Assembly (NCBI GenBank): GCA_029243485.1
Contig: JAQWRY010000075.1
Span: forward strand, 124,001 to 188,000
From: Candidatus Binatia bacterium
GTDB taxonomy: Bacteria; Desulfobacterota; Binatia; UBA12015
Length of the DNA: 64,000 nucleotides
Direction: 5' to 3'
A program made the translations under genes and the position numbers. Of this stretch, positions 20,790 through 26,542 are shown piece by piece; the stretch's first letter is position 1, and each line of letters opens with the position of its first letter. The notes beneath the pieces were generated by a model. That model did no database searches, was not told the origin of the DNA, and saw only the letters and a list, made by a program, of their open reading frames with translations.

Positions 20790-21164
20790 TCAGAACGGGC
20801 TATCGAAGGCACTCCGAATCAGCGTGCAGACCGGATGCCCTTCCCCCCACTCGACACCGACGACGTCGAACCGCGCCGCCACGGCACGGCGCTGCCTCGA
20901 TAGGTAGGCCGCCGCCACGCGGGCGATCCGAGCCTGTTTCTCCCGGCCGATCGTCGCGAGAGGGCCCCCGTGGCGCCGACTCGACCGCGAGCGGACCTCG
21001 ATGAAGACGGTCGTGGAACCATCGAGGGCCACCACATCGACCTCCGCCCCTGCGAGCCGAACGTTGCGGGCCACGATCGTGTAGCCGCTGCGTACGAGAA
21101 GTTCGCAAGCGGCGTCCTCGGCCGCTCGGCCGCGCGCGATCCTTGGATCCTTTGCCCGTGCCAT
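20790..21164 (-). CDS. yraN: YraN family protein (UPF0102, predicted endonuclease fold)
   Basis: 124 residues from the ATG at 21164. The restriction-endonuclease-like core shows GRAAEDAACELLVRSGYTIV, ARNVRLAGAEVDVVALDG (the Glu-x-Asp of the PD-(D/E)xK motif) and VFIEVRSRSS, where Glu-x-Arg replaces the usual Glu-x-Lys. Cellular role unproven in most bacteria. A start 22 codons upstream would overlap the Hsp70 stop and add an Arg-rich tail; the internal ATG fits the family better. It follows the Hsp70 operon and may be its last gene. Confidence 0.88.
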   Translation of the reverse strand: MARAKDPRIARGRAAEDAACELLVRSGYTIVARNVRLAGAEVDVVALDGSTTVFIEVRSRSSRRHGGPLATIGREKQARIARVAAAYLSRQRRAVAARFDVVGVEWGEGHPVCTLIRSAFDSPF

Positions 21165-21198
21165 GAGCCGAGCAGGCTCCAACGGGCAGCGCCTCGGC

Positions 21199-23979
21199 TC
21201 AAGCCGTATCCGTACCCTCTTCCGAGACAATCCGAAGCCCGGTCGGGAGCGCCTCGGACAGCATCAGCGCCTGCTGACTCGCGTCCATCGGCACGAGCTC
21301 GCGAACCCAGCGGGCGAAGCCCTTGCCGGCCGGCTCTCGATCGAGTCGCTCTGCGACTGCACTAGCCGACTCGGGGCCGACATCCCGCGCGGGGTCACCC
21401 GTGCGGCGAGCCATCTGCGCAACGGCGAGCGCCAAGCTCGACGAGCGCTCCCACTTCGCCCGGACGAGCTTCTCGAGCCACGCCTCCGCCGACTCTCGGC
21501 TCACCACCGTGTTTGCGGGGCCGTAGACCGGGGCCCGTGCGGCGAGCCGACCCAAGGCCCAGATCTCCGCCTCCGAAGCCTTTCCCTTGGCGACGCGTGG
21601 AACGAGCGCGGCCGCGAGTTCCTGCTTCGCGTGCGCATCGATCCGCTCGAGACTCGCGGCAACCTGCCAGAGCTCGCGGGCTTCCTGCTTGCCCGCTTTC
21701 CAGCGAAGCGGCTTCCCCTTCTTGCGCGCCTCCGGAAGGAGCACCGGTCGGACCTCCTGGTGAATCACCTGCTGCTGCGAACGGGTCAGCCCGCCGGCGG
21801 CGCGTTTCCACATGGTCCACCACTCCGCACGCCCCTGGGTCGCGTTCGCGAACGCCAGCCCGCGATCGAAGAGTCGCCAGAGCTGCTCCGTGCGCCACGA
21901 ATCACGCTCCTCTCCCCACCCGGGCCGCAACAGAAAACCGGCGAGGTTGAACCAGCGTGCTTCGTGGTCGGGCGTGCGGTGTCGGCCCTTCTCGAGCTCG
22001 AGCAGCCTGTCCAGGAGTCGGCGGATGCAGGCGAGCGGCCACGCGTCCTTTCCCGCGGCGAGCGCTTCTTCGAGTCGGCGCGTGATCTGTACCGGCTCGA
22101 TCTCGTCGCCCGAGAAGCACGCATCGAGCAGCGAGAGCGCCGCGTCCACCGAATCGTCGGGAACGATGAGTTCCTGGGTATCGTCAGGCACCGACCCGTC
22201 GGCATCCGGACCGGTTGCGCCTTCCTGGCCCGTGCGGGCGCGAAGATCGAAGCTAAGCCGCCAACGATGATCGGTGTTCCGCGAAAGACACCAGACCTCG
22301 AGGGTCCCGGTCTCGGTGAGGTGCACCCGCAAGTAGACGGGCACATCGCGCGCAGCCAGCGACTTTCCGAAGCGGAGCACCGTCGCCATCTCCGGTAGCT
22401 CGAGTACACTGTGGGCCGGCACGTCGAGAACGGCGCCCGCATCGTCACCGGTGCGCGTGCTCGACGCGTAGATGCTGAAACGGACGGGCTGGTTGGCGGC
22501 GACGACGAAATCGTGATCTCGCACGTCGATCTCTGCGCCTTCCTCCATCCCGCGCGGTGCGATGCAGAGCACTCGATGGTTCTCCGCCTCACGATCGTCC
22601 TGCAGGCCGAGGTAGTACGACCGGGCCGCACCGCCCGCGATGCGAACCCCGAAACCGCGGCGGGCGAACCCGTACGCGACCGCCCCCCGAGACACCGCCA
22701 GGTCGAGATCTGCGCCGGCCAGCTCGATCGGCCGCTTCCCCGACCACGTTTCCAGGAGATCCATGACCCGCGACCGAACGGCATCGGGCTTTACGGCGCC
22801 TCCGTTGAACAGGACCGCATCGGGAACCGCCGCTTCCTGCCCGGTTCCATCCGCCGTCCGAAGGAATGTGGCGAGGTGACGCGTGATCGACGGATCGGAC
22901 GAGTACGGAAGTCCGAACTCGACCAGCCCGGCACGACTCCCCCTCTCCGGCTCGGCCGACGCGTCGACAGCGGGAAAGAAGCCATCTAGAACTTCGTCGA
23001 GAATGTCCTTCCCGACGAGGTCGGCGCGCACCGTTCCGGCCACGACGCCTCGGCCGCGACCGGCGACGGACACGGGCACCTTCTGCGGTGGGTCTTCCCC
23101 GAGGAGCCGCTCCTTCGCTTCGCGGCACAGCGCGGAGAGCTGCTGCCACCGGGCCGCGTCCAGCCCCGCACTTCCCGCGCGGGCGAGGATCCGCGTCGCG
23201 AGCGCCAGGTCCATGTTGTCGCCGCCGAGCAGGATGTGGTCGCCCACCGACACGCGCTCGAGCCCGACCCCGTCGGCCGAACGGCGAACGGCGACAGTCG
23301 AAAAATCAGTCGTGCCCCCACCCACGTCGAGAACGAGGATCGTCTCGTGCCCTTCGAGCGCTTCACGCCAGTCGTCGTGAGCAGCGATCCAGGCGTAAAT
23401 CGCCGCCTGGGGCTCCTCCACGAGGCGCAGCCGCGGAAGCCCCGCGTCCGCGGCGGAGCGAACGGTGAGCTCGCGTGCGACTTCATCGAACGAGGCCGGA
23501 ACCGTGAGAACGAGATCCTGCTCCTCGAGCGGCGCCTCCGGGTGCGCTACGTTCCAGGCCGCGCGGAGGTGCGACAGGATGGCCGTCGACGCCTCGACCG
23601 GCGAGACCTTCGTAACGTCTTCAGAACCTCCCCACGGCAAGATCGCAGCGTCGCGGTCGACGCCGCCGTGACACAGCCACGACTTGGCCGAAACGACCTG
23701 CCGACCGGCGACGCGGGCCCCGAGCTTCCGAGCCAAAGCCCCGACCGCACGTCGTTCATCCTTCGCCCAGGGCAGTTCCAGAGCCCCGTCCGGCACGTCA
23801 TGCTCGCCGGCCAGATAGAGCGCGGACGGCAGCACCGGGCGTGCGGCGACCTCCCCCTCTCCGACGAGCTGCGCGATCTCGAATGACTCGATGGCGCCAC
23901 CCGAGACCCGGCCCCACGAAACCGTCGTGTTCGTCGTTCCGAGATCGATACCGACGACGAACTGCGGAGATTCGCTCAC
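21199..23979 (-). CDS. Large Hsp70-family protein with extended C-terminal helical region
   Basis: 926 residues, far longer than DnaK (about 640). The N-terminal actin-like ATPase is intact: FVVGIDLGTTNTTVSWG (phosphate 1), ILVLDVGGGTTDFSTV (phosphate 2) and the adenosine-side motif with LLGGDNMDLALA. A segment ARQVVSAKSWLCHGGVDRDA is shared with the neighbouring Hsp70. After a short beta-rich part, residues from about 560 to the end form a long, mostly helical region unlike the DnaK lid (DUF3731-like). Start ATG at 23979 overlaps the stop of the 619-residue Hsp70. No dnaJ or grpE lies nearby, so it is probably a specialised chaperone rather than DnaK. Confidence 0.87.
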   Translation of the reverse strand: MSESPQFVVGIDLGTTNTTVSWGRVSGGAIESFEIAQLVGEGEVAARPVLPSALYLAGEHDVPDGALELPWAKDERRAVGALARKLGARVAGRQVVSAKSWLCHGGVDRDAAILPWGGSEDVTKVSPVEASTAILSHLRAAWNVAHPEAPLEEQDLVLTVPASFDEVARELTVRSAADAGLPRLRLVEEPQAAIYAWIAAHDDWREALEGHETILVLDVGGGTTDFSTVAVRRSADGVGLERVSVGDHILLGGDNMDLALATRILARAGSAGLDAARWQQLSALCREAKERLLGEDPPQKVPVSVAGRGRGVVAGTVRADLVGKDILDEVLDGFFPAVDASAEPERGSRAGLVEFGLPYSSDPSITRHLATFLRTADGTGQEAAVPDAVLFNGGAVKPDAVRSRVMDLLETWSGKRPIELAGADLDLAVSRGAVAYGFARRGFGVRIAGGAARSYYLGLQDDREAENHRVLCIAPRGMEEGAEIDVRDHDFVVAANQPVRFSIYASSTRTGDDAGAVLDVPAHSVLELPEMATVLRFGKSLAARDVPVYLRVHLTETGTLEVWCLSRNTDHRWRLSFDLRARTGQEGATGPDADGSVPDDTQELIVPDDSVDAALSLLDACFSGDEIEPVQITRRLEEALAAGKDAWPLACIRRLLDRLLELEKGRHRTPDHEARWFNLAGFLLRPGWGEERDSWRTEQLWRLFDRGLAFANATQGRAEWWTMWKRAAGGLTRSQQQVIHQEVRPVLLPEARKKGKPLRWKAGKQEARELWQVAASLERIDAHAKQELAAALVPRVAKGKASEAEIWALGRLAARAPVYGPANTVVSRESAEAWLEKLVRAKWERSSSLALAVAQMARRTGDPARDVGPESASAVAERLDREPAGKGFARWVRELVPMDASQQALMLSEALPTGLRIVSEEGTDTA

Positions 23980-25835
23980 CCGCGCCCACCCGCCTCACGC
24001 ACGGTGAACTCCAGACGCCAGCGCGGGCCCTTCCCACGACCCACGAAGAACAGCTCCAGAGTACCGATCTCGGTGACGTGCGCGCGCAGGCGGACCGGCA
24101 CACGCTCGCCACTTTCGCCCTCCAGTTCGACGTGAAGTGGGGCGAGTTCCTCGAGATCTCCGGTATCGAACTCATCGAGCACCTGCCCCGGGGCGTCCTC
24201 GTCACGCGTCGTCGAAGCAAAAAACCGGAACTCGCCGGTCTGCCCGACCAGGAGCCCGAACTCGCTGCCCGGAACTTCGAGCTCGGTTCCTTCCTCGACC
24301 CCGAAGGGGACCACGCACAGACCCTTAACAGGGGCCGGGTGCCCGGGAACCGCCGGCATCGAACTGGCGATCCCGACGTAGTACGAGCGTGCCGTTCCAC
24401 CGCGAATCCGAACGCCCGTGCCTCGACGCGCGCGTCCGTAACAGGCGGCACCGCGCGCGACGGCATGCGCCAGATCCGCCCCGGACAGGACGCGCGGCGG
24501 AGGCGCCTTGGCACTCTTCGCCCAGTCGCCCACGACGTCCTCAATACGCGCCCGAATGCCCTCGGCCGCCATGACGCCGCCGTTGAAGAGCAACGCCGTC
24601 GGCAAGGGCGCCGCATCCTCCTTGCCCTGTGCGGCCTCGACAGCGCCCTGATGGGCACCGAGAAAGTCAGCCAGGTGCCGGGTGATGGCGGCGTCGGCAG
24701 CGAACGGCAGACCGATCTCGGAAAGACCGGCGGCCTCGTCTCGCGCAACGCGAGCATCCGACGCCACCTTCGGGAAGAACCCGTCGAGGAGAAGCTCGTT
24801 CACCTGCGTCCGTGTCAACTCGCTACGAAGTGTCCCACCGATGAGCTTCTTTCCGCGGCCGAGCACGGAGATCGGCACCGCGTCGGGCCCGTCCGCGGAC
24901 AGAAGCCCTTCCTTCGCCACGCGGCAGCTCTGGACCAGGCCGCGTAGCTGCCATGGGTCGAGCCGCTTTCCGTCCTTCGCGAGACTGCTGCGGACCGCGA
25001 ACGCGAGCGCGAGGTCCATGTTGTCGCCGCCGAGGAGAATGTGGTTCCCGACGGCGACGCGCGTGAGGGAGAGACCTCCCTCTTCCTCGTCCACCAGGAC
25101 CAAGCTCAAGTCCGTGGTGCCTCCGCCGACGTCGCAGACGAGGAGAACGTCCCCGACGGCCACCTGCTCGCGCCAGTCCTCCCCGGCCTGGTCAAGCCAC
25201 GCGTATACCGCCGCCTGCGGCTCCTCGATCAGGTGGACGCGCGCAAGACCCGCGGCCTTCGCCGCTTCGACGGTCAATTCGCGCGCCGCCGCATCAAACG
25301 ATGCGGGAACCGTCAAGTATACATCTTGCTCCGCCAGGGGAGCCGCCTCACTCTTGCCGAAGCTCTCGTCCCAAGCCGCCCGTAGGTGCGCGAGGTACGC
25401 CGTAGACGCCTGGAGGGGCGAGACGCGTTCCGTGCCCCCGGTCTCGGCTCCGCCCTCGACCCAAGGAAGAATCGCCTCCTTGCGATCCACATTTGCATTG
25501 CACAACCACGACTTGGCCGACGACACGACACGGTCCGGCGATTCCGCAGCCCTCTTCGACGCGAGCGTACCCACGACATGACCGGCCTCCGGGGCGCCCC
25601 AGGGAAGCCGAATCGACTTCGCCGGCACCTCCTCTCTCCGCGGGATGAGGAGGAACGAGGGGAGCTGTGAGCGCGCTTCGACGGTGCCGGGAGACGTGAG
25701 TTGAGGCACTTCGAGGAGGCGCACCTCGGCGCCTTCTCCGCCCCCCGTATCCGTGTAGGCGAGGACCGAGTTCGTCGTACCCAGATCGATGCCGACGATG
25801 AACCGTGCGTCACCTTCGCTCGCCGGTCCGCTCAT
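23976..25835 (-). CDS. Hsp70-family protein (DnaK-like, second copy)
   Basis: 619 residues. The ATPase motifs FIVGIDLGTTNSVLAYTD, LLVCDVGGGTTDLSLVLVD and HILLGGDNMDLALAFAV are intact, so it should bind and hydrolyse ATP. The substrate-binding half is shorter and divergent from DnaK; the canonical EEVD-type tail is absent. It carries the same SSAKSWLCNANVDRKEAILP insertion as the 926-residue paralogue, marking the two as one subfamily. It overlaps both neighbours by 4 bp (ATGA), implying a strictly coupled trio. Confidence 0.88.
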   Translation of the reverse strand: MSGPASEGDARFIVGIDLGTTNSVLAYTDTGGGEGAEVRLLEVPQLTSPGTVEARSQLPSFLLIPRREEVPAKSIRLPWGAPEAGHVVGTLASKRAAESPDRVVSSAKSWLCNANVDRKEAILPWVEGGAETGGTERVSPLQASTAYLAHLRAAWDESFGKSEAAPLAEQDVYLTVPASFDAAARELTVEAAKAAGLARVHLIEEPQAAVYAWLDQAGEDWREQVAVGDVLLVCDVGGGTTDLSLVLVDEEEGGLSLTRVAVGNHILLGGDNMDLALAFAVRSSLAKDGKRLDPWQLRGLVQSCRVAKEGLLSADGPDAVPISVLGRGKKLIGGTLRSELTRTQVNELLLDGFFPKVASDARVARDEAAGLSEIGLPFAADAAITRHLADFLGAHQGAVEAAQGKEDAAPLPTALLFNGGVMAAEGIRARIEDVVGDWAKSAKAPPPRVLSGADLAHAVARGAACYGRARRGTGVRIRGGTARSYYVGIASSMPAVPGHPAPVKGLCVVPFGVEEGTELEVPGSEFGLLVGQTGEFRFFASTTRDEDAPGQVLDEFDTGDLEELAPLHVELEGESGERVPVRLRAHVTEIGTLELFFVGRGKGPRWRLEFTVREAGGRG

Positions 25836-26542
25836 TCGCCGCCGACCTCGACCTCCGCGGGTGCGAGGATCGTGGGGTCGCTCCCGGGCGTCGGGACGGG
25901 CAGTCGCGCGTCAGTTGCCTTCCAACCCCCGTGTCGCAAGACCCCCTTGTACGGGGGCTCACCGGAGGGGTTCCCTGTGACCCGGATCAGGGCCGGGTCG
26001 AAGTCGGCCGGGACCTCGACAGGGTCACCGTCTTCACCTTCCAAGATCGCAACCATTCCGAGGCGCTCGTCGACGGCCTTGCGCAGCGAGGAGTGGATGC
26101 CGCGGACGGCCGCCCCCACCTGCTCGTCGCTGTAGTCGTCGAGGTTCTCGCGGACGAAGTCGACCAACCGAGCCTCTTCCTGGAGCGCGGCAAGAAGCCG
26201 GAGCCCCGCAGCACCCGGCAGCTCGGCAGGGGCCTCCTCGTGTTCTTCTGCGTCTTGCGCCCCCTTCGCCGCCCCACCTTTGGGCGCGACGACCAACAGC
26301 AGGAGGGCTAGGAGAAAAGGCCCGACCGTCGGGAGGAGGAGCCAGGGCAGGAGGCCCGCGCCCTGGGCCGCGCGAAACGCGGCCCCGACGCCTCCGTCCG
26401 CCGCAGCCCGCACGGCTGCCAGTGCCTCCGCCGGCCCGGGGGCGGCGAGTTGGTACAGCGCGAACCCGCTGCCCGCGGCAAGCGCCACCGACAGCACACT
26501 CGTGACGTAGATTCCCGTCTTGCGGGAGGAGGCCTCAGCCAT
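25832..26542 (-). CDS. DUF2760 membrane protein, first gene of the Hsp70 operon
   Basis: 236 residues. Two hydrophobic helices (about 10-33, VTSVLSVALAAGSGFALYQL; about 62-87, LLPWLLLPTVGPFLLALLLL) anchor it in the membrane. The C-terminal domain (about 110-236: EEARLVDFVRENLDDYSDEQ, VRGIHSSLRKAVDERL, PPYKGVLRHGGWKA) is DUF2760. That domain is known to co-occur with Hsp70 genes, but no function is established to my knowledge. The topology suggests it anchors or recruits the two chaperones at the inner membrane. Divergent from gatC with a 98-bp gap. Confidence 0.85.
   Translation of the reverse strand: MAEASSRKTGIYVTSVLSVALAAGSGFALYQLAAPGPAEALAAVRAAADGGVGAAFRAAQGAGLLPWLLLPTVGPFLLALLLLVVAPKGGAAKGAQDAEEHEEAPAELPGAAGLRLLAALQEEARLVDFVRENLDDYSDEQVGAAVRGIHSSLRKAVDERLGMVAILEGEDGDPVEVPADFDPALIRVTGNPSGEPPYKGVLRHGGWKATDARLPVPTPGSDPTILAPAEVEVGGE

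Follow-up and report, generated by a model that had tools for sequence, protein, structure and literature searches.

The question raised by this locus is what kind of chaperone machine is encoded where two divergent Hsp70s share an operon with a small membrane protein of the DUF2760 family. The operon lies in a 64,000-nucleotide stretch of the genome of a Candidatus Binatia bacterium (GCA_029243485.1, contig JAQWRY010000075.1, positions 124,001 to 188,000; hereafter, the window), and its products are referred to here as the DUF2760 protein, Hsp70-A and Hsp70-B. The best reading, to which we would give a little less than an even chance, is that of a dedicated Hsp70 machine in which the DUF2760 protein would serve as a usually membrane-anchored, GrpE-like exchange factor and J-proteins would probably go unused. 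Passages of a recent review name DnaK, HscA and HscC as the bacterial Hsp70s, each with its J-proteins, and GrpE as the prokaryotic exchange factor (PMC8215388). Should the DUF2760 protein prove to exchange nucleotide, it would be a second bacterial exchange factor, perhaps in an Hsp70 cycle that operates without J-proteins.

Organization of the operon

The operon consists of three open reading frames (ORFs), all on the minus strand, with DUF2760 first, Hsp70-A next and Hsp70-B last, and with overlaps of 4 bp at both junctions (25832-25835 and 23976-23979), just as a first-pass annotation of the window had described. The first gene (25832-26542) begins with ATG and encodes the 236-residue DUF2760 protein, the proposed membrane-tethered, GrpE-like co-chaperone, which matches PF10816 over residues 113-232 (E 3.7e-42; 143.5 bits against a cut-off of 25). 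Hsp70-A (23976-25835; 619 residues, ATG start) and Hsp70-B (21199-23979; 926 residues, GTG start) both match the Hsp70 family PF00012 (E 2.3e-18 and 1.1e-16), as the same annotation had recognized, and Hsp70-B also matches PF12531, the DUF3731 family of "DNA-K related protein", over residues 670-917 (E 5.1e-78; 262.8 bits against a cut-off of 25), a domain that the annotation had not named.

Hsp70-A and Hsp70-B

The intact ATPase motifs reported by the first-pass annotation extend to the whole family: the equivalents of D8, K70, E171, D194, T199 and D201 are retained in all 68 proteins aligned (28 Hsp70-A and 40 Hsp70-B). This alignment and the tree described below omit 17 named Hsp70-A/B ORFs that were missed by the start pattern, each of which bears G[IV]DLGT and all but one KSWL (the printed part of Hsp70-A from locus L076 stops earlier), while the frame-broken locus L084 was skipped in the tallies. 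The KSWLC motif, found at residues 108-112 of Hsp70-A (25500-25514) and 99-103 of Hsp70-B (23671-23685), had been taken for an insertion shared by the two paralogues, but is instead the catalytic-lysine segment, aligning with KRLIG of DnaK such that its Lys (K108 and K99, respectively) occupies the position of K70.

The domain layout of Hsp70-B is given by an AlphaFold2 model with a mean predicted local distance difference test score (pLDDT) of 83.9, which comprises a nucleotide-binding domain (NBD; approximately residues 1-445, 22645-23979) also evident from alignment to other Hsp70 NBDs, a β-domain (approximately residues 454-577, 22249-22620) and a helical C-terminus (residues 608-907). Residues 5-589 of the model align with residues 2-521 of DnaK (7krv_A; Z 35.2, root-mean-square deviation (rmsd) 4.4, 472 residues aligned), and the top structural match is 9a5j_A (Z 38.9), itself an integrative DnaK model. 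As modeled, the β-domain resembles, and takes the place of, the β substrate-binding domain of DnaK, and DUF3731 (residues 670-917, 21229-21972), all-helical and at the position of the lid, would replace the DnaK lid. The structural alignments stop by approximately residue 591, with DUF3731 lying beyond and barely covered by that search. The earlier statement that the C-terminal halves are not DnaK-like thus applies to the lid and not to the β-domain of Hsp70-B. The shorter Hsp70-A has an NBD followed by a C-terminal region alignable with the β-domain of Hsp70-B, and it lacks DUF3731. Neither protein reaches the NCBIfam cut-off for the DnaK equivalog (822.55 bits; Hsp70-A and Hsp70-B score 69.7 and 56.7) or those for HscA (620 and 708.55 bits), against which they obtain their best NCBIfam scores of 87.2 and 91.1 bits.

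The surface on which a J-domain would dock is largely altered. Residues Y145, N147, N170, T173 and R167 of DnaK are taken here as the docking residues on the basis of the DnaK-DnaJ structure, and the GrpE loop of DnaK is likewise taken as background; no confirming paper for either was found in the literature searched. In all 68 family members Y145 is replaced by Ser, N147 by Asp and N170 by Glu; the T173 position holds Gln or Leu in nearly all, and that of R167 mostly Thr, Ile or Val. The VLLLDV linker of DnaK was not present in the 13 family rows inspected. Because most of the docking residues and the linker on which J-proteins act are replaced, J-domain proteins are probably not used by Hsp70-A and Hsp70-B. 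The cleft is changed as well, with Arg at the salt-bridge position K55 in 62 of the 68 proteins and at its partner E267 in 65, and with E264 mostly lost.

The DUF2760 protein and its predicted resemblance to GrpE

The conserved part of DUF2760 proteins is the C-terminal stretch of 120 residues, preceded by a variable N-terminus that includes the anchor. In the window protein, hydrophobic segments were found by the Kyte-Doolittle scale at residues 11-29 (26456-26512) and 68-86 (26285-26341), in agreement with the two-helix membrane protein described at first pass; AlphaFold2 places low-confidence helices at residues 5-32 and 65-85, and a third of low confidence between the two segments. Over 83 DUF2760 proteins, by a crude count with guessed starts, 68 have one or more strong hydrophobic segments before the domain and 15 have none. 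The membrane-anchored chaperone machine of the first-pass annotation survives as the best reading of the operon, with anchoring that is common rather than universal.

The DUF2760 domain proper (residues 113-232, 25847-26206) is modeled with confidence (block-mean pLDDT 80-97 over residues 111-236) as helices followed by seven β-strands. Structural alignment of this model with 476 chains placed GrpE entries at ranks 1 to 5 (9blt, 9a81, 9bls, 4ani and 8gb3; Z 5.5-4.8) and at rank 8 (3a6m; Z 3.5), with identities of 14-23%. Ranks 1, 3, 4 and 5 cover approximately residues 108-236, and the top unrelated chain over the domain has a Z of 3.0. Since the Protein Data Bank holds just 7 distinct GrpE sequences, GrpE is far above chance among the 479 chains picked by Foldseek from 350,542, of which at most 0.03 would be expected to be GrpE by a hypergeometric calculation; this assumes independence of the GrpE chains, an assumption that does not hold. 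A GrpE-like partner is what would be expected beside an Hsp70, and the context thus supports the structural lead. As the fair sequence tests (see below) failed, the predicted likeness to GrpE is a lead only, structural in nature and backed by context.

Canonical GrpE was also found in all 28 of the family-bearing genomes searched (of 31), and the DUF2760 protein is therefore an extra. In the DUF2760 proteins of loci L068, L069 and L079, from Vibrionaceae and Riflebacteria, anchor and domain are separated by long Glu/Lys-rich stretches of coiled-coil-like character that recall the stem of GrpE. Separately, six genomes (G354, G357, G360, G359, G351 and G336) hold second, very diverged GrpE matches besides their canonical GrpE; some of these are in long ORFs (up to 717 residues), and they may be partners of other Hsp70s.

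Occurrence across genomes

The same gene order and pairing are met again across many phyla, and are thus beyond chance. A scan of named genomes, from which the best 80 loci were taken, yielded 31 of the DUF2760/Hsp70-A/B family (L059-L089), whereas the other 49 showed weak Hsp70 matches only, with no DUF2760 within the stretch at hand. Among the 30 family loci that remain once L084 is set aside as broken, all three genes are present in 18 (including L075, where Hsp70-B lies 7.6 kb away), DUF2760 and Hsp70-A in 4, DUF2760 and Hsp70-B in 2 (one of them, L089, ending at a contig edge), Hsp70-A and Hsp70-B in 1, Hsp70-B alone in 4 and Hsp70-A alone in 1. DUF2760 is directly upstream of a same-strand Hsp70 in each of the 24 loci that contain it. 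By record titles, the hosts include alpha-, beta- and gammaproteobacteria, Desulfobacteraceae and other deltaproteobacteria, Acidobacteria, Verrucomicrobia, Lentisphaerae, Planctomycetes, Riflebacteria and Cloacimonadota. The locus skipped as broken (L084 5405-10898, Cupriavidus sp. UYMMa02A) contains the trio in overlapping fragments in different frames, which may reflect a decayed operon or sequencing errors.

The co-occurrence of DUF2760 and DUF3731 is close. In a phylum sample of 198 genomes, DUF3731 was found in 24 and DUF2760 in 25, with both in 23 of the 26 that hold either (DUF3731 only, 1; DUF2760 only, 2), and in a class sample of 145 genomes the corresponding counts were 51 and 48, with both in 45 of 54 (DUF3731 only, 6; DUF2760 only, 3). 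The 12 exceptions are mostly assemblies rated less than 90% complete. Where a partner was absent from a named locus it was found elsewhere in the genome, in 6 of 6 cases for DUF2760 and 5 of 5 for DUF3731, while the same search gave neither in 4 control genomes lacking the set; both families were also absent from 14 control genomes. Plasmids follow suit, in that the 11 plasmid records matching the Hsp70s (E ≤ 1e-40) are the same 11 matched by DUF2760, and the annotated ones name Hsp70 family and DUF2760 domain-containing proteins.

The third gene is less constant. Hsp70-A is absent from ten genomes that hold DUF2760 and Hsp70-B, two of which are single contigs; these ten were chosen for the apparent lack of Hsp70-A at their loci. 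Because of this absence, the core of the machine is DUF2760 with Hsp70-B, and the trio is not obligate. The outcome that was to refute the first-pass reading, a failure of the genes to co-occur, did not come about for DUF2760 and DUF3731, although the trio as such is not kept throughout. So small a core is suited to reconstitution. In nine genomes where DUF2760 and Hsp70-B are apart, DUF2760 is beside Hsp70-A in seven, beside a cut-off Hsp70 in one and alone in one. Separation was also seen at two loci: in a Rhodopila genome, L075 (1-12793) has approximately 7.6 kb between DUF2760-Hsp70-A and Hsp70-B, and in L039 DUF2760-Hsp70-A is approximately 3.5 kb from Hsp70-B, which is immediately preceded by a CoA-ligase-like gene.

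Hsp70-A forms one clade (support 0.85) spanning several phyla when 68 family sequences are placed in a tree with 2 outgroups, and the duplication that separated Hsp70-A from Hsp70-B is therefore old; Hsp70-B is paraphyletic, with weak rooting. Clustering of neighbours at 55 loci, from crude ORF picks, gave no fourth conserved gene: beyond the trio there were a mixed histidine-kinase-type cluster (6 loci) and clusters of 2-4 loci. Of these small clusters ten were checked (YgbB, CooT, DUF3592, CoA-ligase-like, CysS, PilZ, kinase, citrate synthase, ABC transporter and one without a match), and no J-protein was among them.

The proposed machine and its alternatives

The machine so envisaged would be separate from DnaK and HscA. 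Hsp70-B, with its ATPase, β-domain and DUF3731, usually accompanied by its shorter paralogue Hsp70-A, would act as the ATP-driven chaperone, and clients would be bound in the β-domain of Hsp70-B during ATP cycling, with or without Hsp70-A. The DUF2760 protein would be its private co-chaperone, built of a helical stem, in most cases fixed in the inner membrane, and a GrpE-like domain that would wedge into the Hsp70 cleft and exchange nucleotide, thereby resetting the Hsp70 and releasing the client at the membrane. Of this picture, the gene order, the co-occurrence, the catalytic residues, the modeled layout of Hsp70-B and the loss of most J-docking residues are shown; the GrpE-like fold, drawn from a single predicted structure, the interaction, the exchange activity, the membrane as site of action and the type of client are inferred. 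In its full form the proposal makes DUF2760 a GrpE-like exchange factor tethered to the membrane, one that has either diverged too far for detection by sequence or converged upon the fold, and that serves J-independent Hsp70s whose lid is replaced by a helical DUF3731 domain; it is put forward tentatively, and we would sooner doubt it than affirm it. If true, it would add to DnaK, HscA and HscC a distinct Hsp70 machine that is present in many phyla and in effect uncharacterised; the genes themselves are widely annotated.

Several observations weigh against an exchange factor, beginning with the sequence tests. Profile alignment with hhalign gave a score of 15.1 (P 0.17) for 38 DUF2760 against 28 GrpE rows and of 12.2 (P 0.34) for 83 against 60 rows; for the latter comparison, 100 column-shuffled GrpE profiles had a mean of 12.8 and reached 23.8 at most, and reversing the profile gave 13.8. 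Scores of hidden Markov models (HMMs) against their own shuffles reached mean percentiles of 0.60 and 0.67, and an untrimmed global alignment gave a Z of 1.9, inside the range of 14 decoy windows (-2.3 to 2.9). At E ≤ 10, PF10816 was the sole Pfam match of the window DUF2760 protein, with none to GrpE (PF01025), and for 24 DUF2760 members, which between them matched 61 families, GrpE was not among the first 25 families, those listed. The 38-row alignment does pair FDP with FDP and the final A-P-A-E-V-E-V with R-P-A-x-V-x-V of GrpE, which is suggestive and not significant. Two apparent signals were set aside: that of HMM cross-scoring (area under the curve 0.87 and 0.66 against raw ORF decoys) was nearly gone against own shuffles, and an end-trimmed global alignment (13.0 against 2.2, standard deviation 1.5) was rejected because trimming at similar motifs had itself matched the ends.

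The structural comparison has limits of the same tendency. The tool itself rates a Z of about 5 (below 8) as middling, the rmsd is 5-6 Å, and rank 2 (9a81), with an rmsd of 29 Å, is best disregarded. Among the 50 entries listed, 1dkg, the GrpE-DnaK complex of E. coli, does not appear, and a plain Foldseek search with the DUF2760 model gave nothing at E ≤ 0.001, its 28 rows containing no GrpE. In addition, R167, the key docking Arg, is kept in 6 of the 40 Hsp70-B proteins, including that of the window, and three genomes rated at least 95% complete (G235, G318 and G267) lacked DUF2760 or DUF3731 in the search; since the Arg stays in some Hsp70-B and complete genomes hold one family only, the proposal is weakened. 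At G267 the contig has a cut-off Hsp70-B adjoining DUF2760 and Hsp70-A, and G235 has both Hsp70s with no DUF2760 in 16 kb. The main weakness lies in the cleft. According to passages of the review cited above, two cleft salt bridges slow the release of ADP from DnaK, whereas HscA and HscC, which have lost these bridges and the GrpE signature, are considered to work without an exchange factor (PMC8215388); Hsp70-A and Hsp70-B, like HscA and HscC, are without both bridges.

The rival that survives best, if on balance unlikely, holds that DUF2760 is a membrane co-chaperone and not an exchange factor, one that recruits the Hsp70s or stimulates ATP hydrolysis in the stead of a J-protein, its likeness to GrpE being a common arrangement of helices and β-strands. 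The same co-occurrence and pairing would be expected of it, as would the replacement of most J-docking residues, the lack of a J-domain match on the contig of the window and the negative outcome of the fair tests for GrpE homology, and the membrane-anchored J-proteins DjlB and DjlC are thought to act in this way for HscC, in the part of the review concerned with them (PMC8215388). It is opposed by the GrpE entries filling ranks 1 to 5 of the structural alignment and over-represented among the 479 Foldseek picks, and no HPD motif was noticed by eye in the DUF2760 alignment.

It is improbable that the two paralogues regulate each other after the manner of Hsp110 and Hsp70, with Hsp70-B, by its long C-terminal extension, serving Hsp70-A as holdase or exchange factor, and DUF2760 no more than the anchor. 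Tandem paralogues with overlapping genes and the age of the pair, indicated by the single Hsp70-A clade, would suit such an arrangement, and Hsp110 structures do appear in the Foldseek rows, as in any Hsp70 search; against it are the ten genomes without Hsp70-A and the intact catalytic residues of Hsp70-B. Least probable, and very doubtful, is that DUF2760 is the main client or a substrate adaptor, with the Hsp70s folding or assembling it or its complex, for although most DUF2760 proteins have a strong hydrophobic segment by the crude count and nearly always accompany the Hsp70s, it is the soluble domain and not the N-terminal anchor that is conserved, and no complex is visible because neighbour clustering gave no further widely conserved gene.

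Flanking genes and published records

The GrpE-like exchange factor remains the preferred reading of DUF2760, and the surroundings of the operon and the literature may be set beside it. Divergent to and upstream of the trio is gatC (by Pfam), beyond which are ORFs that read by eye as gatA and gatB. A UPF0102/YraN-type gene (20790-21230) comes right after Hsp70-B, likewise on the minus strand, and may share its transcript; it was not among the 40 largest neighbour clusters of related loci.

Neither DUF2760 nor DUF3731 is named in the main text of the literature searched (supplements were outside the search), no functional study of the set was found there, and "DUF" was not matched in the Myxococcus and DnaK-duplication papers searched. 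The V. cholerae genes VC1373-1375 are probably this operon, VC1373 and VC1374 being called DnaK-related in the entries seen. Tables and excerpts of published studies list the VC1373-1375 unit as repressed in biofilm (PMC9201469), report that HapR, a quorum-sensing regulator, activates the VC1375 promoter both in vivo and in vitro (PMC10328515), and include VC1373 and VC1374 in expression tables for riboflavin and iron (PMC5816637) and for a sensor-kinase mutant (PMC5636140). "DnaK-related" proteins that are putative family members appear in similar extracts, one from Photobacterium as carbonylated after ultraviolet B exposure (PMC3706606) and one from Thiodictyon in a differential-abundance table (PMC6413534). 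Together these reports hint at use in late growth or under stress.

Comparison with known Hsp70 systems

The host genome possesses the established systems as well. Canonical dnaK, dnaJ and grpE are together on contig C3, and contig C86 encodes an Hsp70 preceded by a J-domain match that is weak and does not reach the cut-off, probably the HscA-HscB pair. The contig of the window (C75) holds none of the four J-domain matches of the genome, nor its one GrpE match, which is on C3. The absence of a J-protein and of GrpE noted at first pass accordingly stands for recognizable J-domains and Pfam GrpE on this contig, but is qualified by the GrpE-like predicted fold of DUF2760, itself not borne out by sequence. 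Outside the set, contig C63 of the same genome (L055) contains an Hsp70-like ORF, with an open frame of 740 residues and two separate weak Hsp70 matches.

The window proteins are members of the Pfam families DUF3731 and DUF2760, names that carry no function for either. Like HscA-HscB, the set would join a specialised Hsp70 to a dedicated partner, although no J-domain partner is beside the window Hsp70s. There is also a parallel with E. coli HscC, in that passages of the review describe a specialised Hsp70 thought to be tied to the inner membrane by its membrane-anchored co-chaperones DjlB and DjlC, and one that has lost the cleft salt bridges, as here, along with the GrpE signature (PMC8215388). 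In that system, however, the co-chaperone is a J-protein, whereas the DUF2760 protein has no recognized J-domain. With DnaK-DnaJ-GrpE the operon shares an Hsp70 NBD with its catalytic residues, a β-domain resembling that which binds substrate, a partner gene beside the Hsp70 and, as proposed, a GrpE-like partner. It departs from that system in having no J-protein and in the replacement of most J-docking residues and of the VLLLDV linker, and it differs further in the helical DUF3731 at the place of the lid and in a partner that is usually membrane-anchored.

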